Source: Limosilactobacillus caviae
Lineage (GTDB): Bacteria > Bacillota > Bacilli > Lactobacillales > Lactobacillaceae
NCBI RefSeq assembly: GCF_014635905.1
Contig: NZ_BMDS01000001.1
Span: 372,001 to 436,000, forward strand
DNA length: 64,000 bases
Direction: 5' to 3'
A program made the translations under genes and the position numbers. The notes under the pieces are model-generated. The model was not told the origin of the DNA and searched no databases. It saw nothing but the letters and a program-made list of their open reading frames with translations. Position 1 is the first letter of the stretch, and each line of letters begins with the position of its first letter. Below are positions 2,339-24,173 of the stretch, piece after piece.

Positions 2339-3022
2339 ATGAAAACGTTAGTGATAGTAGCACATCCGCACCTTGCAAATTCGACAACTGAAGCATTTTT
2401 AAAAGCAGCTGCTGCCAATGAAAATAACGTTATCTGGCACGAATTGAAAGCACCGTTTGATCCGTCTCAAGAACAAGAACTGCTAAAATCAGCGACACGG
2501 ATTGTTTTCCAGTTTCCGATGTATTGGTATAGCGCACCAGCAATCTTAAAGCAATGGTTAGATGAAGTGCTGGATTCACGAATAACGAGCAATCAGATTC
2601 TTAAGGGGCGTCAGCTAGGGATTGTGACAACTTTGGCACATTCTGCTTCTGCATTTCAGCCAGGTGCAAGCCAGCAATATACGATCGCTGAAATCTTGCG
2701 GCCTTATGAAGCATTAGCACATTCTTTAGGAATGAAGTTTTTACCACCGTTTCCAATTTATCAATTTGCGCAACAAGACGAGGCTGAACGGCAACTGTTA
2801 TTTATTCGCTACCAGCAATATTTAACTGTTAATAATTTCTTGCATTTTAGCAACCGGACACAATGGTTTGTTGAGCGGCTTAATGACAAAATTAACGAAG
2901 AACATGATCCGCTTCAGCAGGCTAAGCTAGAACAATTATCGATGTTATTGACTGAGCAACAAGAAGAACTAGATGATTTACATGCTTCGATTGGATGGTT
3001 ACGCGCAAAAGAGGATGATTGA
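2339..3022 (+). CDS. NAD(P)H:quinone oxidoreductase-like flavoprotein
   Basis: A 227-residue protein of the flavodoxin-fold NAD(P)H dehydrogenase family (MdaB/KefF/YwrO type). The N-terminus TLVIVAHPHLANSTTE is the phosphate-binding loop for FMN/FAD, and the segment FQFPMYWYSAPAILKQWLDEVL is the hallmark second motif of these cytosolic two-electron reductases. They reduce quinones or other electrophiles with NAD(P)H. The length is slightly above the usual 180-200 residues because of a charged C-terminal helix after about residue 190. AAAGGAG stands about 8 bases before the ATG. A small gene begins one base after its stop region. The substrate cannot be told from sequence. Confidence 0.85.
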   Translation: MKTLVIVAHPHLANSTTEAFLKAAAANENNVIWHELKAPFDPSQEQELLKSATRIVFQFPMYWYSAPAILKQWLDEVLDSRITSNQILKGRQLGIVTTLAHSASAFQPGASQQYTIAEILRPYEALAHSLGMKFLPPFPIYQFAQQDEAERQLLFIRYQQYLTVNNFLHFSNRTQWFVERLNDKINEEHDPLQQAKLEQLSMLLTEQQEELDDLHASIGWLRAKEDD

Positions 3023-3023
3023 T

Positions 3024-3197
3024 ATGAACGAAAACCAACAATGGGCTCATAATGAGTTGAAAAATTTAATAAAAAATAGCCCATCTTATGAAGATCAAGC
3101 TTTCTACCGCGGATTAGATCAATTAATGCTTAAACAGGCACAACGTCTAATTAACGCAACCGGAGAACTTGATGGTCGTAGCTGGGCTGATAAATAA
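3024..3197 (+). CDS. Small hypothetical protein, 57 aa
   Basis: The start at 3024 is chosen because AAAGAGG (3008-3013) lies about 10 bases upstream; the frame is open further upstream but only inside the reductase gene. The product is hydrophilic and probably all helical, with no membrane segment and no family I recognise. It follows the flavin reductase without a gap, so the two are very likely cotranscribed and translationally coupled. A role as accessory to the reductase is possible but unsupported. Coding status rests on the ribosome site, the tight coupling and the protein-like composition. Confidence 0.6.
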   Translation: MNENQQWAHNELKNLIKNSPSYEDQAFYRGLDQLMLKQAQRLINATGELDGRSWADK

Positions 3198-3504
3198 ACT
3201 GGTTTAAAAATATAAAGCAGAAGTCTACCTACCACTTCAATAATAGACTTCCACCTTATCAGATAATTGTTTCAAAAAATGAAACTAGGGGGTTATTAAT
3301 ACCCATTCATTTTAACTGCACTATTAAAATGAAAAATATTACTGATAAAATTTATAAATATCATTTGATTGATAATGTCTTCAAAGGGAATTTATAGAAT
3401 AATATTTAGTAATACTTTACGGGTATCAGAGAATTATGAATCAAATTCTCGTCTTTTATTATAGAACAAATTATCATTAAAAAGTATAAAATTCTTAATT
3501 TATC
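3198..3504. other. AT-rich intergenic stretch with hairpins
   Basis: No gene is visible here. An 8-bp inverted repeat GAAGTCTA/TAGACTTC (3220-3227 and 3244-3251) lacks a T tract. A better terminator lies at 3429-3459. The remainder is AT-rich, with no convincing promoter, repeat or small reading frame with a ribosome site. Confidence 0.5.
3429..3459 (+). terminator. Candidate intrinsic terminator
   Basis: GAGAATT (3429-3435) pairs with AATTCTC (3444-3450) across an 8-base loop, followed by a T-rich run GTCTTTTATT. It would end transcription coming from the left; the distance from the last gene is large. Confidence 0.45.
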
Positions 3505-3882
3505 TTATTTTGCTGAAAGTTGTAAGTCCCTTTTGAGCTTTTCGGCTAAAATAACTGCTTGGTTATGTTCTTCGTCACGTGCACCATAAAGCAGGATAAC
3601 ATTTTGCGTTGATAGCTGATTTTGAACAATTGCTTTTAAGGAGTTGTAGTAGGCGGGCTTTGCGGCTAGTTCAGCTAGATAACGTTCACGGAATTCTGGA
3701 TAACGGGCGACGTCATGATTGAACCATTTACGTAGTTCGGTGCTGGGACCAACCTCTTTTAGCCATTTATCAAGGTGTGCATTTACTTTTGAAATACCTC
3801 GTGGCCAAATACGATCTACAAGAATTCGGTAGCCGTTTAAATCAGCTGGTTTTGTATAGATTCGTTCAACTTTAAGTTCCAT
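3505..3882 (-). CDS. DUF488 family protein
   Basis: A 125-residue protein of the DUF488 family, small cytosolic proteins of unknown activity. Recognisable pieces are the N-terminal VERIYTKPADLNGYRILVDR, then WPRGISK, the WLKEVGPSTELRKWF segment and the C-terminal LLYGARDEEHNQAVILAE. The start at 3882 is preceded by AAAGGAG with good spacing; a longer frame to 3966 exists but has no ribosome site and runs into the divergent gene's leader. It diverges from the mpg operon with about 60 bases between the two starts, so the promoters must overlap. Function is unknown; the link to DNA repair next door is only positional. Confidence 0.85.
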   Translation of the reverse strand: MELKVERIYTKPADLNGYRILVDRIWPRGISKVNAHLDKWLKEVGPSTELRKWFNHDVARYPEFRERYLAELAAKPAYYNSLKAIVQNQLSTQNVILLYGARDEEHNQAVILAEKLKRDLQLSAK

Positions 3883-3945
3883 GAGTGTCGATCTCCTTTG
3901 ATTAGTGTTAAGTTTAGGATAGTTCTTTTTAGGAGGAAAATAAAC

Positions 3946-4578
3946 ATGCTGACAAAATATCAACAATTTTTTACCGGCCGTCCAACAACCGAAATTGCAA
4001 AAGACCTATTGGGAAAAATGGTAAAGTATCAGGACGGAGATGAAATAGTTGGTGGCTATATTGTTGAAACTGAAGCATACTTAGGGGAGCAAGATTCAGC
4101 ATCACATGCTTTTAATGGGCGACGAACCGGTTATTCTGAATCATTATATGGGATGCCTGGCAACATCTACTTATACCAAATTCGGGGTCATTATTGTTTT
4201 GATATTGTCGTTCAAGATGCCGAAGAACCACAAGGAATTTTGCTACGAGGGATTGAACCAGCTATAAATGTAGAGAAAATGGCAGAAAATCGTCATATGA
4301 CTGGTGTAAATATTACAAATGGTCCAGGAAAACTGGTGCAGGCACTTGGCATTCATTCGCGTGATTTGGATGGTCAGCCGATGGAAACAAGTCCGCTAAC
4401 AGTTGATTTACAAGACTTTAAAATTCCCCGGGAAATTACTACCACAGCCCGTGTAGGAGTTAATATCAAAGGAGCTAACGGGCTTAGTCCACGCCGGTTC
4501 TATGTGAAGGGTAATCCCTATGTGTCTAACATGAAAAAGCGGGACATGGATATGGCAAACCATGGTTGGAAGGAGTAA
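3946..4578 (+). CDS. mpg: DNA-3-methyladenine glycosylase (AAG/MPG type)
   Basis: A 210-residue monofunctional glycosylase that removes alkylated purines such as 3-methyladenine and hypoxanthine in base excision repair. The motifs are clear: YIVETEAYLGEQDSASHA with the catalytic glutamate region, then RRTGYSESLYGMPGNIYLYQIRGHYCFDIV, LLRGIEP and NGPGKLVQALGI. The length fits the bacterial AAG family. The start at 3946 is fixed by AGGAGG at 3931-3936; the open frame back to 3898 lacks a ribosome site. The MoxR-like gene starts three bases after the stop, so this repair gene leads a four-gene operon with a MoxR ATPase and a VWA protein, an unusual partner set. Confidence 0.93.
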   Translation: MLTKYQQFFTGRPTTEIAKDLLGKMVKYQDGDEIVGGYIVETEAYLGEQDSASHAFNGRRTGYSESLYGMPGNIYLYQIRGHYCFDIVVQDAEEPQGILLRGIEPAINVEKMAENRHMTGVNITNGPGKLVQALGIHSRDLDGQPMETSPLTVDLQDFKIPREITTTARVGVNIKGANGLSPRRFYVKGNPYVSNMKKRDMDMANHGWKE

Positions 4579-4581
4579 ATA

Positions 4582-5727
4582 ATGGCGTTAACTTATCAAC
4601 AATTATTAACAGCAGTTCCGGTTGTCTTAGATGCTGGAAATGTTCCTAACATTGTCGGTGATGCTGGGATTGGAAAATCTGCGCTTGTACAGGAAGTAGC
4701 CATGAATTTAGATGCTAAACTATTTACGACTATTGTAAGCTTAAGTGAAAAAGGAGACTTAGCAATTCCGGTCCCGCCATTAACAAGCGAGTCTTTTGTT
4801 GAAACAAAGGATTATGGGCGATTAGCTAATGTTCAATTCGGCTATTCCGAAACATTAATTGATATTATCAAGTATGCAGAAACGCATCCTAATCGGTTGA
4901 TTCTGTGGTTCTTAGACGAATTCAATCGGGGAACACAGGCTGTCCAAAGCGAATTGATGAACCTTGTCCTTCAACGAAAGATTAATTCTTTACGATTACC
5001 CTCAACGGTGCGGATTATAATTGCAGAAAACCCTGATTCAACAATGACTGGCTTTGCAGATCGAGAATACGGGGTTGCAATTGGCGATGCAGCGATAAAA
5101 GATCGAACAGTTCGCCTTGTAATGACTAGTTCAACAACTGAATGGTTAAAATGGGCTAAGACTGCTGGAATTAATAAGTTAGTGATTGCTTACCTTGCTC
5201 AGTACCCAAATCAATTATTAGTTATTGAACCTAATGAGGAAGATTTAGCACCAACCCCGCGTGCATGGGAAAGAGTTTCGCGAAACTTAGACCAGCTTCA
5301 AATATTAGATGATGAAACACAACAACAGCTTGCTGCGGACATTTTTAGTGGCGACCTCGGTGCGGAAGTTGGGGTAGCTTTTGCGCAGTTTATTTTTGCT
5401 CAGGGCCATGAGTTGACAGTAAAAACATTAAAAAATGCGGAAAATGGTGAACAACAGTTTAATCAGGCGGATGAAGCAACAAAAATTAAGGTACTGCGCT
5501 CGTGGATCGGTCCAGAGTTAGCAACAGAAAAAGCTGCTATGCTGTTTTTGAAATATTTACAGCTTGTCAGTAATGATGGGCAATATGCAATTGTTCAAAC
5601 TGCTGGTGATAAATTAACCGAGCTTCTTCAACCAATGTATGAGCAAGCAATTAAACATCCCCAAGGAGCTGTTAGTCGGCTTTACCAATATTTTGCGGAG
5701 GTGGCTACCCGTGGTGATAATCGATGA
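4582..5727 (+). CDS. MoxR-type AAA+ ATPase
   Basis: A 381-residue AAA+ ATPase. Walker A is GDAGIGKS at residues 26-33, and Walker B is LILWFLDEFNRG around residues 106-117 with D112 and E113. A sensor-like stretch IIIAENPDSTM follows, then a lid domain. MoxR ATPases act as chaperones that help VWA-domain partners mature or remodel other complexes. The stop overlaps the start of the next gene by four bases (ATGA), and that next gene is a VWA/HExxH protein, the classic MoxR partner arrangement. It lies three bases after mpg. ATPase activity is well supported; the client is inferred to be the downstream gene product. Confidence 0.88.
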   Translation: MALTYQQLLTAVPVVLDAGNVPNIVGDAGIGKSALVQEVAMNLDAKLFTTIVSLSEKGDLAIPVPPLTSESFVETKDYGRLANVQFGYSETLIDIIKYAETHPNRLILWFLDEFNRGTQAVQSELMNLVLQRKINSLRLPSTVRIIIAENPDSTMTGFADREYGVAIGDAAIKDRTVRLVMTSSTTEWLKWAKTAGINKLVIAYLAQYPNQLLVIEPNEEDLAPTPRAWERVSRNLDQLQILDDETQQQLAADIFSGDLGAEVGVAFAQFIFAQGHELTVKTLKNAENGEQQFNQADEATKIKVLRSWIGPELATEKAAMLFLKYLQLVSNDGQYAIVQTAGDKLTELLQPMYEQAIKHPQGAVSRLYQYFAEVATRGDNR

Positions 5728-17719: not shown

Positions 17720-18643
17720 TTAATAATCAAATAATTCAGTTGAAAGGTAACGGTCACCGCCATCAGGAGCAACTGTAATTACTTTTTTGCCTTTGCCGAG
17801 CTTCTTAGCAACCTCAATTGCGCCCTTGATGTTAGCACCAGCAGAAATACCAACAAGGATTCCTTCTTGGTGGGCAACTTCACGAGCAGTGGCGATTGCA
17901 TCATCGCTCTTGACTTCGAGGATTCCATCATAAACGTCAGTATCGAGGACTTTAGGTACAAATCCAGCACTGATTCCCTGAATCTTATGCTTACCGCCTT
18001 TACCATCCTTCAAAACTGGTGATTCAGCTGGTTCAAGTGCATAAACCTGGACAGATGGGTTGGCGTTCTTCAAAGCGTGACCAACTCCCGTCAATGTACC
18101 ACCGGTTCCAACACCAGCAACAAAAGCATCAGGAATATCGTTGCCAAATGCTTCAAGAATTTCTTTTCCTGTTGTCTTTTCATGAATATCAGGGTTAGCA
18201 GGATTATTAAATTGCATTGGCATGAAGTAGCCTTTTTCATTTACTAGCTCTTCTGCTTTCGCAATTGCCCCCTTCATTCCATCAGCACCTGGAGTAAGAA
18301 TTAATTCAGCACCGTAGCCTTGCATGAGCTTCCGACGTTCAACGCTCATTGTTTCAGGCATTGTGATGATCAGGTGGTAACCCTTAGCAGCAGCAACCAT
18401 TGCAAGACCGACACCAGTATTACCTGAAGTAGGTTCGACAATAGTACCGCCAGCTTGCAGTTTACCGGCTTTTTCTGCTTCTTCGATCATTGCAAGGGCA
18501 ATTCGGTCCTTAATTGAGCCAGCTGGATTGAAGAATTCCAGCTTAACGTAAACGTCAGCAGCATCGTCAGGAACAACCCGATTTAACTTAACGATTGGCG
18601 TGTTTCCGATTAAGTTTGTAATAGAATTAGTGATTTCAGTCAT
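17720..18643 (-). CDS. cysK: Cysteine synthase A (O-acetylserine sulfhydrylase)
   Basis: A 307-residue PLP enzyme that makes cysteine from O-acetylserine and sulfide. K45 in NPAGSIKDR binds the cofactor; the substrate loop [12 protein letters not shown] (residues 68-79), the PLP phosphate loop [12 protein letters not shown] (around 176-187) and the C-terminal ISAGAN are all present. The length is normal. It follows metA after 5 bases in the same transcript, so homoserine activation and cysteine or related thiol synthesis are co-produced. In Lactobacillales such enzymes may also act on O-acetyl- or O-succinylhomoserine, so a role in methionine synthesis is possible. Expression probably depends on the leader upstream of metA. 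Confidence 0.95.
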
Positions 18644-18648
18644 AATAT

Positions 18649-19473
18649 TTACTCCTTTACCAATTGTTTTGTTTTTGCGTCGTTAGCAACGGTCTGAAGC
18701 CAATTATCGAAGAATACTTGTTGGGTTCGCTGCCAGCTAAATTGGGGATCTTTCATATGAAGCGGATCACGGAAATAGTTTTGCGGCTTAATATATTCGA
18801 CACCAGGATGTGTATTTCGTTCCCGTAAGTACTCTTTCAATAACGCATCTTGACCATATTCGAGGTGTGAGAATAAGAAATATTGATTCTTCTCGCGCGC
18901 ACGAAATGAGAATAAACGATTATCTTTAGTAGTAGCATTAATAATCAAACGTGGATCGCGAGCAATCTTGTTAATATCCAACTCAGCGTACCGAGCATGG
19001 GGAGCAAGAAAGCCATCATCTAAACCCGTTAATAACGGATCTTCATGTTGAATATAGTTATGAAAAACACCAAAGATTTTTTGAGGAAGAGGCATTTTAG
19101 AAATCCCATAAAGATAATTAGCAGCTGCCATTGCTCCCCAGCAAACATAAAGCTGTGGAATATTATTAGCGACCAAGCCGTCAATTAGTTGGTGAACTTC
19201 ATCGAGATAAGTGATTTTTTTGAATGGAAGCTGTTCAATTGGCGCACCGGTAATAATAAAAGCATCCATCGTTGCAACCTCTCCTAACTCTAAGGGCTGG
19301 GAAATTTGTTGAACAAGCTTAGGAACAGATCGTGAAGTATAGTGAGTTTGAGGATAAAAGTATTGAACATTAACACGGTGTGGCCCAGCGGAAAGGACCT
19401 TTGTAAACCGTTGCTGAGTATCTTCTTTGTCGTGCATTAGGTTAAGAATTCCTATTTTTAATGGAGTTGTCAT
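18649..19473 (-). CDS. metA: Homoserine O-acyltransferase (MetA/HAT-type)
   Basis: A 274-residue member of the MetA family, which acylates homoserine in the first step of methionine synthesis. The nucleophile is C111 in [15 protein letters not shown], and the catalytic pair is H203 and E205 in FSHLEYG. At 274 residues it is shorter than classic MetA (about 300), mostly at the C-terminus. The acyl donor, acetyl-CoA or succinyl-CoA, cannot be fixed with certainty from what I can see. GAGGTGA precedes the ATG. It is transcribed with cysK from a promoter at 19682-19710, through a leader with a candidate Cys-codon attenuator. Confidence 0.88.
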
Positions 19474-19507: not shown

Positions 19508-19592
19508 AAAAAACTGTTACTAGAACCTTAAAGCATCAATTAGCCACATTTAAAGAGAAGGGCTTGCCTAGCCTTAATTAGTTTAGCAACAG
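19508..19592 (-). terminator. Candidate attenuator hairpin in the metA-cysK leader
   Basis: Reading the minus strand, CTGTTGCTA (19592-19584) can pair with TAGTAACAG (19522-19514), with one G-T pair, and TTTTTT (19513-19508) follows directly. The pairing extends further with AAG against the T run. The 5' arm contains both Cys codons and most of the stop codon of the short leader reading frame. A ribosome held there would block the arm and allow read-through. Confidence 0.6.
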
Positions 19593-19633
19593 CTTGTTAG
19601 TTTTTGTTGAACGGTGGTGGTTATAAAAGTCAT
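19583..19633 (-). CDS. Putative leader peptide ending Cys-Cys
   Basis: A 16-residue reading frame, MTFITTTVQQKLTSCC, with a strong ribosome site GAGGAG (19648-19643) 9 bases before its ATG. It lies downstream of a good promoter and upstream of metA-cysK, which make sulfur amino acids. Its last two codons are TGT and TGC, directly before TAA, and they sit in the 5' arm of a terminator-like hairpin. This is the layout of a transcription attenuator sensing charged Cys-tRNA. There is an in-frame ATG three codons upstream (19642), but it touches the ribosome site. That it is translated and regulatory is inference from layout. Confidence 0.6.
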   Translation of the reverse strand: MTFITTTVQQKLTSCC

Positions 19634-19681
19634 GAACGACATCTCCTCATTTTATCGATCGCACTTATTATTAGTAATTAA

Positions 19682-19710
19682 AGTGTACCCGCTGGAATAG
19701 GAAATGTCAA
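19682..19710 (-). promoter_or_regulatory. Promoter of the metA-cysK transcript
   Basis: On the minus strand, TTGACA (19710-19705) is a perfect -35 box, followed by a 17-base spacer and TACACT (19687-19682) as -10. It starts 10 bases behind the stop codon of the ABC permease gene and gives a leader of about 200 bases before metA. Confidence 0.85.
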
Positions 19711-19720
19711 TTTATAGTAC

Positions 19721-21646
19721 CTAGCTTTGTTCAACGATTTTACGGTAAATTTTTGTGGTGAGACCATAAATTACAAAGTAAAGACATAGCAGAATTAATG
19801 TGATTGATACTGCGATTATCGTCATTAATTGAACATTGTAAAAATTAAATTGGATTAAAATTTGACGGATCGCCGGAATAGCGAAACAAAGGTTAATAAT
19901 CGCACCGACTACTGGTAGCATAAAGACCATCAATACTTGACTATGGATGCTCTTAGTTGTTTCTTTTTCACTTAACCCAACTTGTTGCATTGTCTTGAAA
20001 CGAGCTTGATCTTCATAACCTTCAGTGATTTGTTTGAAGTAGATGACAACGGTTGTCGTGATACCAAGCGCAAAACTAATGAGAATTCCTAAAAAGACGA
20101 TCCCGCCATAGAGACTTGTTAACTGGCTCTTAAGGTTTGTTCGAGAAGAATATACTTGGTTTGGTAAATGTAGCTTAGCCTGTAAATCATTCTCAAATTG
20201 AAGATGCTCTTTTTTGCTTCCGTTTAAGTGATAGTCGATTCCGATAAAGCAAATTGTGGCAGTATTTGCGGGAAGGTTATTGGTAATTACAAAAATAGGA
20301 GAATAAATCGAATGGCTAGGGTTGAAGTAATAATTGAAATTATGGAGGACCTTTGCCTGATACTTTTGTGAGCCTACTTGTAAGGATCCCTGATGTTCCT
20401 TGGCAGGAGAATAAATTAACGCCTTGTCTTTTCCTAGTTTGACTTTTTGGCCTGAAATTCGATTATAAGTAGCGGTTGACATTGTAATGATCGAATTAGT
20501 GGTTTGATTAGTCATATTTTCTAAACCACCTTGAATAATAAAATGATTGTTTTTCCAGTATCCGTATTGTGGCGCGCTGGTGGTAAATGTTAGCGGCTTA
20601 TCAAGGTGGGCCTGATGTTTACTTGCAACTGACTTGATAGTAGCTTCTTGCTGAGAAGAAAGCTTTTGCGAAGTAATAATAGTAAGATCGCGAGGCGCAA
20701 AGGAATTAACAGTATCATTGATTCCCGCATACATGGTTAATGAGGTAAAGAGGATCACGAGGACGGAACTGCAAAGTAAACAAATCGTTGCAAGACTAGC
20801 GCCGTTTTGCTCCATTCGTTGTAGCATTCCTGAAATGGCGATGAAGTGACGAGGCCGATAATAATATCGTTTGTTCTTTTGAAGAATTTTAAGAACAATG
20901 ATACTTCCAGTAATGAAAACAAGGTAGGTTCCAATTACCACTAAGAAAACTGCCAACATGAATGTCGATAAGGCGGATATTCGGGGCTTAACAGTAATTG
21001 TAAGGTAATAAGCGAAAGCAAGGGCAGCGACCCCGAGAAGTCCAGCAAAAGTGAATAGCTTTCCGTGACTAGCAATTTTAGCTTGTTTGGGCTGCCATAA
21101 TTCATTGGGATTTAAACGAAATAGTTTTATTAAGTCAATAACCATCAAGATTAAGAAAAAGCCGCCGATAATTAAAATTGTGGTGGTTACAGCAGGCCAT
21201 TCTACCCATGGTTGTGATAAATGCTCAATTTGCAACAAATGGGCAAAACCGAGAAATGCGAGGCGGTCAAAAATAACTCCGAATAAAATTCCGATAAAAA
21301 GACTAATTACTAGCAGATATAATTTTTCAATAATTGTTAATACCTGTAAATTACGGCTAGTCATTCCTAACATGCTGTACAGACCCATTTCCCGCTGACG
21401 TTGTTGCCATAAGAAACGGTTGACATAAATCATAAATGCAAGGGTTACAAGAATGATAAAGGTTGATCCTGTCTGCATTAATGCTTTAGTTACAGCTGCA
21501 CTTGGCAAATCTTTAAGACTACGGTTAATTTCAACCGCCTTAAAAATATAGTTAATAGCGACTAGCATTATCATTGAAATAAGGTAAGGAATGTAGACCT
21601 TAAGATTACGCTTAAAACTAGAATTGATTAGTTTGAAGAAAAGCAT
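19721..21646 (-). CDS. Bce-type ABC transporter permease (FtsX family)
   Basis: A 641-residue protein with ten predicted membrane helices and one large outside domain of about 200 residues between helices 7 and 8 (about residues 310-520), the signature layout of BceB permeases. These work with a paired ATPase to free lipid-bound cell-wall targets from peptide antibiotics such as bacitracin, and also act as the sensor for the linked histidine kinase. The N-terminal FtsX-like block includes the QQRQREMGLYSMLGMTSR coupling motif. It follows the ATPase gene after 3 bases. The antibiotic recognised cannot be read from the sequence. Confidence 0.9.
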   Translation of the reverse strand: MLFFKLINSSFKRNLKVYIPYLISMIMLVAINYIFKAVEINRSLKDLPSAAVTKALMQTGSTFIILVTLAFMIYVNRFLWQQRQREMGLYSMLGMTSRNLQVLTIIEKLYLLVISLFIGILFGVIFDRLAFLGFAHLLQIEHLSQPWVEWPAVTTTILIIGGFFLILMVIDLIKLFRLNPNELWQPKQAKIASHGKLFTFAGLLGVAALAFAYYLTITVKPRISALSTFMLAVFLVVIGTYLVFITGSIIVLKILQKNKRYYYRPRHFIAISGMLQRMEQNGASLATICLLCSSVLVILFTSLTMYAGINDTVNSFAPRDLTIITSQKLSSQQEATIKSVASKHQAHLDKPLTFTTSAPQYGYWKNNHFIIQGGLENMTNQTTNSIITMSTATYNRISGQKVKLGKDKALIYSPAKEHQGSLQVGSQKYQAKVLHNFNYYFNPSHSIYSPIFVITNNLPANTATICFIGIDYHLNGSKKEHLQFENDLQAKLHLPNQVYSSRTNLKSQLTSLYGGIVFLGILISFALGITTTVVIYFKQITEGYEDQARFKTMQQVGLSEKETTKSIHSQVLMVFMLPVVGAIINLCFAIPAIRQILIQFNFYNVQLMTIIAVSITLILLCLYFVIYGLTTKIYRKIVEQS

Positions 21647-21649
21647 TGT

Positions 21650-22405
21650 TTATTCACCGCCATTCGTTAAGGTCATCATTGTTTGGCTAATTTGCTGTTG
21701 ATAATCTTTTAGTGAAAGATCTCCACGATAAAGCTCATGATAGATTCGCCCATCCTTAATAAAGAGGGTGCGTTTAGCATGACTAGCAGCAGCGGCACTG
21801 TGCGTAACCATGATGATAGTTTGACCGTTAGCATTAACCTCATCAAAAAGTTCAAGAATTTCGTTGCTGGTGTTTGAATCTAAGGCCCCAGTTGGTTCAT
21901 CGGCGAGGAGAAGGTCAGGATGGGTAATTAGGGCACGTGCAATTGCAATACGCTGCTGTTGTCCTCCTGAAATCTCACTTGGGAAACGATCAATAATTTT
22001 ATCAATTCGTAAGCGGTCAATTAGGGGCTTGATTCGTTCTTCCATTGTTGTAACAGGTGTTTTTGCTAGGACAAGCGGTAAATAGATATTGTCACGATTT
22101 GAGAGGCTGTCAAGTAAGTTAAATTGTTGAAAAACAAAGCCGAGATGTTCGCGACGGTAATGTGCTGCGTCGTCTTTTGATAGTTGACGAAGATCTTGCC
22201 CATTAAGAACCACCTGACCATTAGTTGCCTGTTCTAGGGTTGCGATTATATTTAACAAGGTACTTTTACCAGCACCAGATTCACCCATGATTGCCACATA
22301 CTCCCCTTCTTCAACTTTAAAGGTAATATCTTTTAAGGCCATAACAGGGTTCGCGGAGTTAGGGTTGTATACGCGTTGAACGTGTTGGAGATTTAATACT
22401 GTCAT
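21650..22405 (-). CDS. Bce-type ABC transporter ATP-binding protein
   Basis: A 251-residue ATPase. Walker A is GESGAGKST around residues 39-47, the signature EISGGQQQR around 142-150, and Walker [13 protein letters not shown] around 164-175. It has the form of the MacB/BceA/LolD branch with [30 protein letters not shown]. It energises the permease encoded 3 bases downstream. Expression is probably induced through the response regulator of the same locus: a TTACA-N4-TGTAA palindrome lies 96 bases upstream, and a TATAAT box (22456-22451) overlaps the T run of the preceding terminator. Confidence 0.93.
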
Positions 22406-22450
22406 AATAGTTTTCCTTTCTGGTAAAGTGCTAAGTTTGATTATGTCTTA

Positions 22451-22502
22451 ATTATAAAAAGGTTCTGTACTACTTCCTACTTACGGAAACGTACAGAACC
22501 TT
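22451..22502 (-). terminator. Terminator of the regulator-kinase transcript, overlapping the ABC promoter
   Basis: A perfect 12-bp stem AAGGTTCTGTAC (22502-22491 on the minus strand pairing with 22470-22459) is followed by TTTTT. The same bases continue into TATAAT (22456-22451), the likely -10 box of the transporter operon. The terminator and the next promoter therefore share sequence. Confidence 0.75.
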
Positions 22503-22514
22503 ACAATTTTGTAA
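22501..22514. promoter_or_regulatory. BceR-type operator
   Basis: TTACAATTTTGTAA is a perfect palindrome matching the form TNACA-N4-TGTNA known for BceR-like response regulators. It lies about 45 bases upstream of the -10 box of the transporter operon, the expected activating position. Confidence 0.7.
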
Positions 22515-22522
22515 GCTTTAAA

Positions 22523-23500
22523 TTAAGCATGTTTAACGTTGGCTGACTGAAAAGATAAAATGGCTGTTGTTCCTCGGCCTTGGATTGATGAAACGCTAAC
22601 CTGAAAGTTTAATTGCTGAGTAACCTTTTTAACAAGGTACAACCCCATGCCAGTAGCAGCAGTTATTTGGTGACCATTTTCCCCAGTAAAGCCATTTTCA
22701 AAAATTCGTGGAAGATCAGTCGTTGGAATTCCGCAACCATGGTCAGTGATCCGTAAAGAATTAATTTCCCAGGAAATATTAATAGTATTGTTGGGGGCTG
22801 AGTATTTGATTGCATTTGAAAGTAGTTGTTCAATACAAAAGCGCAACCATTTACGGTCAGTAAGAATAGTAACTCCAGTTAAATTTTGTAACTCAGGAAT
22901 AAGCTGTTTATTAATAAAAATAGCTGAGTTTTGCTGTAGGATTGCGTTCACTAGCTGGGCAATATTAACCCATTGAAAATCGTAATCGTGGTTATTGATC
23001 GCTAGGCGTTCATCGCTTAATAGTAAATTTAGATAATAATTTGCTTGGTACGTATTTCTCTTAACTTCTTCACTGGTGACTGTTGGTGAATTTTCTGCAG
23101 CAGCAGTTAAACTTGTTAAATAATTTTTGATTTCGTGGGCAAATAATTCAAGGTGGTCAAGTTGTTCATGTTGTACTGCTTGTAATTGACGGATAGTCTG
23201 GATGTTTTTTGAGCGTTCTTTCTGCAGAATTTCAATAAGTCTTCCTTCAGTTATATTGGCGGGGTTAAAGTTGTCAAGCTGTGAAATCGTTAAATGGCGA
23301 AGACGATAGAATTGAATTGCACCTGTCCAAATAAGCCAAATGATAAAAATTGGAAGGGAGAAACGAATAGTGTCACCCCAAAAAACGATAGGAAGATTAT
23401 ACAAAATTGCTAGCAGACCGATTAGACCAATTAAAATTATATAACCGATAGTAGCAGGGAATATTGAACGGCAAAATAATTTGAAATAATACTTATTCAT
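22523..23500 (-). CDS. Intramembrane-sensing histidine kinase (BceS type)
   Basis: A 325-residue kinase with two N-terminal membrane helices (about residues 13-35 and 45-62) and almost no outside loop, the mark of BceS-type kinases that read the state of a partner ABC transporter instead of binding the drug. H122 in FAHEIKNYLTSL is the phospho-accepting histidine. The ATP-binding part has N-box-like FCIEQLLSNAIKYS, then ITDHGCGIP and TGMGLYLVKK. The ATG at 23500 overlaps the stop of the regulator gene by 8 bases (ATGAATAA); an upstream extension to 23560 lies within the regulator gene and is not used here. Confidence 0.92.
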   Translation of the reverse strand: MNKYYFKLFCRSIFPATIGYIILIGLIGLLAILYNLPIVFWGDTIRFSLPIFIIWLIWTGAIQFYRLRHLTISQLDNFNPANITEGRLIEILQKERSKNIQTIRQLQAVQHEQLDHLELFAHEIKNYLTSLTAAAENSPTVTSEEVKRNTYQANYYLNLLLSDERLAINNHDYDFQWVNIAQLVNAILQQNSAIFINKQLIPELQNLTGVTILTDRKWLRFCIEQLLSNAIKYSAPNNTINISWEINSLRITDHGCGIPTTDLPRIFENGFTGENGHQITAATGMGLYLVKKVTQQLNFQVSVSSIQGRGTTAILSFQSANVKHA

Positions 23501-24173
23501 GATCAACCACCAGGCGATAACCAAGGCCACGTTCTGTGTGAATACATTGACGTAAACCAATTGTGCTTAGTTTAGTTCTTAGACGGCTAATATTGACGTT
23601 GAGGGTGTTTTCATTGAGATATTTTCCACCTTGCCATAACCATTGCAGTAGTTGATCTTTAGAAACAGTTTTATTGCGATGACTAAGTAAAACTTGTAGC
23701 ATTGCCCCCTCAGTTGGAGTAAGTTGCGCAGTGCCGTATGCATTTGTAAGAACATTAGTAAGCGGGTTAAATGAATTATGCCCCCAGTCTAGTTTTTCCG
23801 TATCGGTTACCTGCTTATTTCGGCGTAACAAAGCTTGGATCTTTGCTAAGAGGACGGTCATTGTGAATGGCTTCATGATGTAATCATCAGCCCCAGCCGT
23901 AACTGCGTGCATGACATTGGTATCAATTTCTGCTGCGGAAATTACGATGATCGGTACTTGACTGTATTTACGGACTTCCTGAATCCAATAAAAACCATCA
24001 AAAGTAGGAAGAGTGATATCAAACAAAACAAGATCTGGCTTTGCAGTAATAATCTCGTTTGCAACGTTTGCCCAGTCCTTAACTGTGATGGTATCATGTT
24101 GCCATTTGCTTAAATTTTGCGCAATTGCATGGATAATGTCGGGATTATCCTCAACAATAAATATTTTAGCCAT
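23493..24173 (-). CDS. OmpR-family response regulator (BceR type)
   Basis: A 226-residue two-domain regulator. The receiver domain has the acidic pocket E8, D9, phospho-acceptor D52 (LVLFDITLP) and K103 region (DYIMKPF). A winged helix of the OmpR/PhoB type follows (PTEGAMLQVLLSHRNKTVSKDQLLQWLWQ, then ENTLNVNISRLRTKL). It is the first gene of the regulator-kinase transcript and probably activates the ABC transporter operon through the TTACA-N4-TGTAA site at 22501-22514. It diverges from an aldo/keto reductase gene. Its signal is inferred to be a cell-wall-active peptide antibiotic detected through the transporter. Confidence 0.93.
   Translation of the reverse strand: MAKIFIVEDNPDIIHAIAQNLSKWQHDTITVKDWANVANEIITAKPDLVLFDITLPTFDGFYWIQEVRKYSQVPIIVISAAEIDTNVMHAVTAGADDYIMKPFTMTVLLAKIQALLRRNKQVTDTEKLDWGHNSFNPLTNVLTNAYGTAQLTPTEGAMLQVLLSHRNKTVSKDQLLQWLWQGGKYLNENTLNVNISRLRTKLSTIGLRQCIHTERGLGYRLVVDHE

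Follow-up and report, generated by a model that had tools for sequence, protein, structure and literature searches.

A predicted cysteine-codon attenuator before the metA–cysK operon of Limosilactobacillus caviae, with related leaders across the Lactobacillales

How is the operon of metA and cysK, on the minus strand of Limosilactobacillus caviae contig NZ_BMDS01000001.1, controlled? In the 64,000-nt stretch of DNA analysed here (hereafter the window), the initial annotation had described a promoter, a leader open reading frame (ORF) that has a ribosome site and ends in Cys-Cys-stop, and a hairpin with a T run whose 5′ arm holds the Cys codons and the stop. All three were found (Table 1). The Shine–Dalgarno (SD) motif lies nine bases before the ATG at 19633, the hairpin proper (19593–19513; 81 nt) has a predicted ΔG of −24.1 and runs into a U tract (19513–19508), and 39 nt separate the hairpin end from the metA start. 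The locus thus carries (i) an SD-preceded leader ORF between promoter and first gene, (ii) a run of codons for the operon's product that is conserved as codons (CC or CCC, with TGT and TGC interchanging) and (iii) a predicted intrinsic terminator between leader and first gene, as in an attenuator. We consider it highly probable that the element is a ribosome-mediated transcription attenuator sensing cysteinyl-tRNA. This reading, already offered by the initial annotation, is supported by sequence tests of anatomy, conservation, covariation and spacing; what we infer is that, in the cell, the leader senses tRNA and switches between termination and read-through.

Table 1. Positions of the leader elements and operon genes in the window
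Feature	Position	Strand	Basis or remark
Promoter TTGACA-17-TACACT	19682..19710	minus	10/12 consensus matches; relatives similar by eye
Shine–Dalgarno GAGGAG of the leader ORF	19643..19648	minus	AGGAG or similar in relatives
Leader ORF MTFITTTVQQKLTSCC-TAA, 16 codons	19583..19633	minus	Sequence and relatives
Putative regulatory Cys codons TGT TGC, abutting TAA	19586..19591	minus	Conserved in relatives
Leader stop codon TAA	19583..19585	minus	
Terminator stem 5′ arm (base): Cys codons, stop and flanks	19580..19593	minus	Pairing and covariation
Terminator stem 3′ arm (base)	19513..19526	minus	Pairing and covariation
Predicted intrinsic terminator, hairpin and U tract	19508..19593	minus	Energy-model fold
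First operon gene, 'metA' (HTS fold; probable serine O-acetyltransferase)	18649..19473	minus	Pfam PF04204
cysK, cysteine synthase A	17720..18643	minus	TIGR01139 above cut-off

A small hairpin is predicted around the leader's SD motif, which occupies its loop (19671–19623 in the window, and in relatives); by eye its stem reads ACGAC..GUCGU in several relatives and UAAGCAU..AUGCUUA in locus L018, and it could have a pausing role or tune initiation. The genes adjoining the operon on the minus strand (19721–24173) look by eye like a Bce-type peptide-antibiotic sensing module; they encode a large permease and an ABC ATPase, together with a histidine kinase and a response regulator.

With the NCBIfam models for homoserine acetyltransferase and homoserine succinyltransferase, the window protein annotated MetA reaches just 207 and 183 bits, far short of the respective cut-offs of 460.5 and 495. 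A Lacticaseibacillus paracasei gene annotated metA encodes a serine acetyltransferase according to the available text of PMC6004538, which cites Bogicevic 2016. The window 'metA' is probably a serine O-acetyltransferase as well; serine acetylation by this protein would give a two-step cysteine operon, so the product is most likely cysteine and not methionine. The earlier assignment of these genes to sulfur amino acids therefore stands for cysteine but not for methionine. For the L. paracasei cysE–cysK operon, the same available text reports a change of ~2-fold by RNA-seq that was not significant by RT-qPCR and saw no hint of regulation in the 5′-UTR (PMC6004538), and the accessible part of PMC12785664, on L. 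reuteri CysK, does not mention regulation.

Taken alone, the window is barely above chance. The promoter by itself is no evidence because such sites are as frequent as chance predicts (11 found in 3.5 kb vs 10.7 expected). The base of the stem forms 12 of 14 pairs, a value equalled by 21 of 500 shuffles, and Cys-Cys occurs in one of the 55 SD-preceded short ORFs (8–40 codons) of the window, namely this leader. Folding of the leader, which the initial annotation had proposed as a check, predicts the hairpin; the z-score of the whole-leader fold is uninformative (z −0.89; 38 of 200 shuffles equally good). A stem that is just mildly above chance in the window would also fit a plain intrinsic terminator or RNA-stability hairpin beside a chance short ORF, with no cysteine sensing; the relatives described below bear on this. 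With them added, the signal is clearly above chance.

This genome is rich in T-boxes (28 matches, 15 above the cut-off), and a T-box, SAM or other known riboswitch or leader could be thought to act here too. None of the 28 matches lies at this leader. In agreement with the earlier remark that no T-box core or S-box is visible, the window has no Rfam match at gathering score, T-box and SAM included, and an E-value search of the leader returned two weak microRNA hits only. Rfam models found nothing over the leader in 12 leader-bearing loci, nor in 20 loci picked mostly for lacking a leader, nor in 20 loci outside the family. Control by one of these known elements is thus extremely improbable.

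We then compared the upstream regions of relatives for the favoured reading, a cysteine-codon attenuator. Of 50 genomes from the genus, 39 have a MetA match, which in some is merely a distant paralogue, and the 30 best same-genus MetA loci were taken for comparison. An SD-preceded Cys-Cys ORF lies upstream in 25 of the 30: CC or CCC stands directly before TAA in 21 (type I; TGT-TGT-TAA in 11 and TGT-TGC-TAA in 10), and four loci (L029–L031 and L036) have an internal CCC. The Cys-Cys leader is absent in five (L013 and L032–L035). In L013, from the close relative G017, the gene order is swapped, with metA directly behind cysK and without a leader. Leader peptides in this set vary between clades except for the Cys run. 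The Cys-Cys-stop ending, which the initial annotation had proposed to look for in relatives, is thus retained while the other residues drift.

The proposed pairing also covaries, including synonymous TGC/TGT swaps that are matched in the opposite arm. The covariation set holds 19 of the 21 type I leaders (14-pair arms, 15 distinct rows); L018 and L019 were omitted because their U tract is absent and their stem degenerate. Against shuffles that ignore the relatedness of the leaders, pairing cells make up 95.2% of the stem (87.6% shuffled), the covariation score is 0.363 (0.222 shuffled, reached by 0/500) and 20 cells are changed on both sides (8.4 shuffled; 0/500). Two weaker measures are pairs changed on both sides (5 vs 3.3; 24/500) and pair types (15 vs 13.7; 128/500). 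Sliding the arms by 1–3 columns gives a covariation score of at most 0.187. At the wobble position of the last Cys codon, C-G (7) alternates with U-A (6); the swap leaves Cys unchanged and is compensated by the opposite arm. In L018 and L019, ~120 nt before metA, the SCCC-TAA ending is retained, the hairpin is degenerate and the U tract is missing; the stem comparison there gives 11 of 14 pairs at the wrong place, with 66/500 and 60/500 shuffles as good. Their leader is possibly decaying or translation-acting.

In type I leaders, to which the window belongs, the Cys codons and the stop form the base of the terminator. Their arms were located by pairing, the hairpins measure 72–94 nt with a ΔG of −24 to −42, and hairpin plus U tract are found in 19 of 21 (the window and 18 others), L018 and L019 being without. 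We propose that RNA polymerase starts ~40 nt before the leader ORF and that a ribosome translates the leader behind the polymerase. With plentiful cysteine, the ribosome would read the Cys codons, reach TAA and leave, upon which the 5′ arm would pair with the 3′ arm made ~50–70 nt later and transcription would stop at the U tract. With scarce cysteine, the ribosome would pause with its A site on the first Cys codon, and its footprint, extending ~12 nt beyond, would cover nearly all of the 5′ arm; the hairpin base could then not form and the polymerase would continue into the putative serine acetyltransferase gene and cysK.

According to folding predictions, stalling on Cys would weaken the terminator. 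Without a ribosome, the pairing probability of the 3′ arm's final 8 nt is 0.86–1.0 in each of the 19 type I leaders that have a U tract (window 1.0); with a ribosome on the Cys codons it is 0.02–0.72 (window 0.19), the weak hairpins of L011, L012 and L014 still pairing the 3′ arm in the stalled state (0.71–0.72). With the stop codon in the A site, values range from 0.01 to 0.79 (window 0.5). Since a ribosome at the stop covers the same arm, the off state of type I would have to rest on fast ribosome release. In the window leader, we saw no strong structure competing with the terminator and no separate antiterminator strand. What counts against the scheme is that, in B. subtilis, RNA polymerase reportedly runs ahead of the ribosomes. 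In its favour, B. subtilis ribosomes are denser on Cys codons during serine starvation, according to the available text of PMC3862929.

Leaders of a second architecture (type II) have an internal Cys run, a stop 30–105 nt past the first Cys codon and a separate terminator downstream. Beyond the same-genus set, a search of the order with MetA gave 28 new loci (L037–L064), of which the upstream regions of 13 were examined (L060 and 14 more distant loci were left out); leaders were found at L037, L039 and L043–L045, and L038, L040 and L041 are without. One scan of GTDB r220 found the leader in 33 of 51 named loci, from Limosilactobacillus, Ligilactobacillus salivarius, Liquorilactobacillus, Lactobacillus and Companilactobacillus (17/17 in the last). 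The 18 named loci without it include other species of Limosilactobacillus, Ligilactobacillus and Liquorilactobacillus as well as four distant MetA outgroups. There is hardly any upstream DNA, or none, at L073 and L113; L111 shows a single stray CC ORF. A T-box at L076 (3911–4172) lies behind metA (3001–3780) and hence is not this leader. In Limosilactobacillus reuteri WF-AA1-C (L068, ~3800–5500), an insertion of ~1.7 kb separates metA and cysK. A contig titled Faecalicatena absiana (L084) carries a lactobacillus-type metA–cysK with a CCC leader, which would be contamination, a mislabel or a transfer.

Cys leaders precede two different cysteine operons. The second, cysK2-ctl1-cysE2 of L. paracasei, is log2 2.9–3.2 higher in cysteine-deficient than in methionine-deficient medium; its 5′-UTR has high read coverage, a premature rho-independent terminator and no T-box, an antisense RNA at the operon may add to its control, and its cysteine-response mechanism is called 'yet to be discovered', all according to the available part of PMC6004538. 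Searching plasmids by tblastn, the window MetA returned only distant MetA proteins and the window CysK returned L. paracasei plasmids. Three plasmid copies of this operon (L116–L118) carry an SD-preceded leader that reads MTQSMFNAINCCCRTT(L/R)FWRCSAC or nearly so, and the terminator reported in PMC6004538 stands behind this type II leader. The leader DNA matches 32 plasmid records, all from Lacticaseibacillus.

In a cysK2 search of 201 genomes of the family, 95 gave a match, the weaker matches including the window's own cysK. A CC or CCC ORF lies upstream of cysK2 at all 46 places examined, out of 49 at an identity of at least 62%. These 46 and the three plasmid copies make 49 leaders, of which 47 show both an SD motif and a terminator in our pipeline, L165 and L167 failing the SD pattern. 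One of the 46 belongs to the window's own genome, on another contig (G000, contig 4, 39498–40406; L177): a second cysteine-operon gene, of cysK2 type, with its own CCC leader MKNNYFVNANTCCCESRLMRLTFWYTHF. Outside the family, a Cys-Cys ORF is present at 18 of 21 loci from five further families of the order and absent at L212, L213 (where the locus is truncated) and L219; L196 failed the SD pattern. Re-examination of 20 of these loci found leader and terminator in 17, a leader at L208 for which no terminator was found, and L212 and L219 leaderless, i.e. a terminator call in 17 of 18 leaders. The initial annotation had made its proposal for metA–cysK in lactobacilli; the attenuator is supported there, but the leaders extend beyond both that operon and that group.

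This spread bears on the plain terminator with a chance ORF. Cys-Cys is retained before two operons and in several genera, and terminator pairing cannot explain its conservation because it is conserved also in leaders whose Cys codons are not part of that stem. Furthermore, scanning both strands of every locus collected up to that stage for SD-preceded ORFs (8–45 codons, CCC or CC end) yielded the metA and cysK2 leaders and just three strays (L068 minus strand, L110 and L126). We therefore regard a mere terminator as very improbable.

Type II leaders have the predicted anatomy of a classical antiterminator and terminator. If a ribosome stalls at the Cys run, the strand left free, which in many leaders lies ~14 nt past Cys codon 1, would pair with the terminator 5′ arm as an antiterminator; if it reaches the stop, that strand would be covered and the terminator would form. 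We examined 36 of 39 metA-side and plasmid rows with a terminator below −13 kcal/mol, including L116–L118 and omitting L036 by the energy cut and L039 and L080 by name (their terminator pick looked wrong); L037 and L072 are one and the same leader. Because the rows were selected by terminator energy, the presence of a terminator in these 36 is no test. In 35 of 36, the terminator 5′ arm pairs more with upstream RNA when the ribosome stands on the first Cys codon than when it stands at the stop, the exception being L117 (0.45 vs 0.57) and L087 being a tie within 0.01. A ribosome at the stop covers all predicted antiterminator partners in 36 of 36. The antiterminator region folds with z ≤ −2.3 in 15 leaders, whereas in 21 its stability is not clearly beyond that of shuffles (Companilactobacillus-type and L096; z −1.8 to +0.7). 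Type II leaders thus have a predicted, mutually exclusive antiterminator governed by ribosome position, though a weak one in Companilactobacillus and its group. All calls of terminators and antiterminators are predictions from an energy model, and leader counts are not independent events because many leaders come from close relatives or from one species in two collections.

The spacing of the pairing strand was analysed in 57 leaders (47 from cysK2 and 10 metA type II leaders outside the Companilactobacillus group). The 7-mer at +14 to +20 from the first Cys codon (Cys1) is fully complementary to the terminator 5′ arm (G-U allowed) in 37 of 57, with 13 different sequences; at shifted positions this holds for 0, 6, 2 and 5 of 57, and after shuffling for 76 of 2850. 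Position +14 is about the expected leading edge of a ribosome with Cys1 in the A site. The three L. paracasei/casei plasmid leaders match at just 5/7 positions, and outside the family the full 7/7 match at +14 occurs in just 2 of 17 leaders, most of the remainder having their pairing strand further downstream. The energy-best antiterminator helix starts within the Cys codons in 18 of 47 cysK2 leaders, and in several type II leaders the antiterminator would be hidden by a ribosome stalled on Cys codon three.

Companilactobacillus-type leaders (L043–L045, L093–L095, L097–L109, L114 and L115) have a conserved C-terminal peptide, ..CLIPLN in nearly all, which suggests that the peptide or another RNA feature may matter. 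Such conservation leaves room, in this group, for an arrest-peptide sensor, in which the nascent peptide, alone or through an action of free cysteine on it, would stall the ribosome at the stop as in TnaC; type I Cys codons abut the stop, where a ribosome would mask the same arm. However, beyond close relatives only the Cys run is common (89 distinct peptides in 108 rows, where each of the three plasmid leaders appears twice), type II leaders have their ends elsewhere, and induction by free cysteine would turn a biosynthetic operon on, the wrong sign. We give this sensor a very slim chance and retain cysteinyl-tRNA as the probable signal.

In a quick tree of 86 MetA proteins (midpoint root, near-copies from two collections included), type I forms one branch of 28 rows (SH-aLRT 98), which includes the leaderless L013. 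As it is a single branch among type II and leaderless MetA rows, type I looks like a derived, compact version of the classical three-strand attenuator. TAA is recognised by both release factors. All 21 type I leaders stop with TAA, a preference that is merely suggestive because TAA also belongs to the stem; the 39 metA-set type II rows have TGA (24), TAG (9) and TAA (6), and the 47 cysK2 leaders have TAA (32), TAG (11) and TGA (4).

Control could alternatively act on translation or through Rho, as has been proposed for mycobacterial polycysteine leaders, with the stalled ribosome altering access to the metA ribosome site or blocking Rho. L018 and L019 have a leader without a U tract, and Cys leaders without terminators are reported in Actinobacteria in the available text of PMC1262725. 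Set against these are the hairpin and U tract of the other 19 type I leaders, terminator calls in 36 of 39 type II metA-side and plasmid rows, 47 of 49 cysK2 leaders and 17 of 18 leaders outside the family, and the antiterminator geometry of type II. We judge control of this kind improbable and prefer transcription attenuation.

Taken further, the data lead us to favour, with some reserve, a regulon across the Lactobacillales in which Cys-codon attenuators act on serine acetyltransferase–cysK and cysK2-cgl-cysE. In one Limosilactobacillus clade, the regulatory codons and stop would have been rebuilt as the terminator 5′ arm, with the ribosome as sole antiterminator and UAA release as the off signal. 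If true, this would (i) give the Lactobacillales a cysteine-sensing regulon, (ii) offer a possible explanation of the cysteine response of L. paracasei cysK2-ctl1-cysE2, which concerns sulfur metabolism in dairy strains, and (iii) provide a natural test of ribosome–polymerase coupling in these bacteria.

Amino-acid control by leader peptides is textbook knowledge for enterics and seldom reported in Firmicutes, where T-boxes dominate. Among the titles and opening parts of abstracts in one open-licence library (subscription papers being outside this scope), we found no earlier description of a Cys attenuator in Lactobacillales. Mycobacterial polycysteine ORFs are reportedly leaderless, going by the title of Canestrari 2020. 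As described in the accessible text of PMC1262725, the polycysteine leaders of mycobacteria and other Actinobacteria resemble ours in being short ORFs with a Cys run near the stop before cysteine genes, but no conserved terminator hairpin was found there. Also comparable is the uORFC-8-2 motif before cysS in Rhodobacterales, a sequence-based proposal of a Cys attenuator, with two tandem Cys codons within a stem and a U-rich terminator; it differs in its alphaproteobacterial hosts and in the gene, for cysteinyl-tRNA synthetase (PMC8632094, available part). Within Firmicutes, the histidine leader peptide before hisS/hisZ in bacilli also replaces a T-box, but it has histidine codons and other genes (PMC2965389, available part). 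Rli60 of Listeria monocytogenes is, like the present candidate, a ribosome-mediated attenuator in a Firmicute; according to the available text of PMC5864092 it was tested by mutation, and it differs in its branched-chain codons, its ilv-leu genes and its conventional terminator and antiterminator.

Type I would be a minimal switch in which one strand provides both the sensor codons and the terminator arm. The trp, his and leu leaders of enterics are ribosome-mediated attenuators, in which a leader ORF with codons for the end product and alternative hairpins let ribosome position decide, and type II fits them in the anatomical points tested. Unlike those leaders, the present ones use cysteine as the amino acid and occur in Lactobacillales, and in type I, where no separate antiterminator strand was seen, the putative regulatory codons and the stop codon themselves form the terminator 5′ arm.
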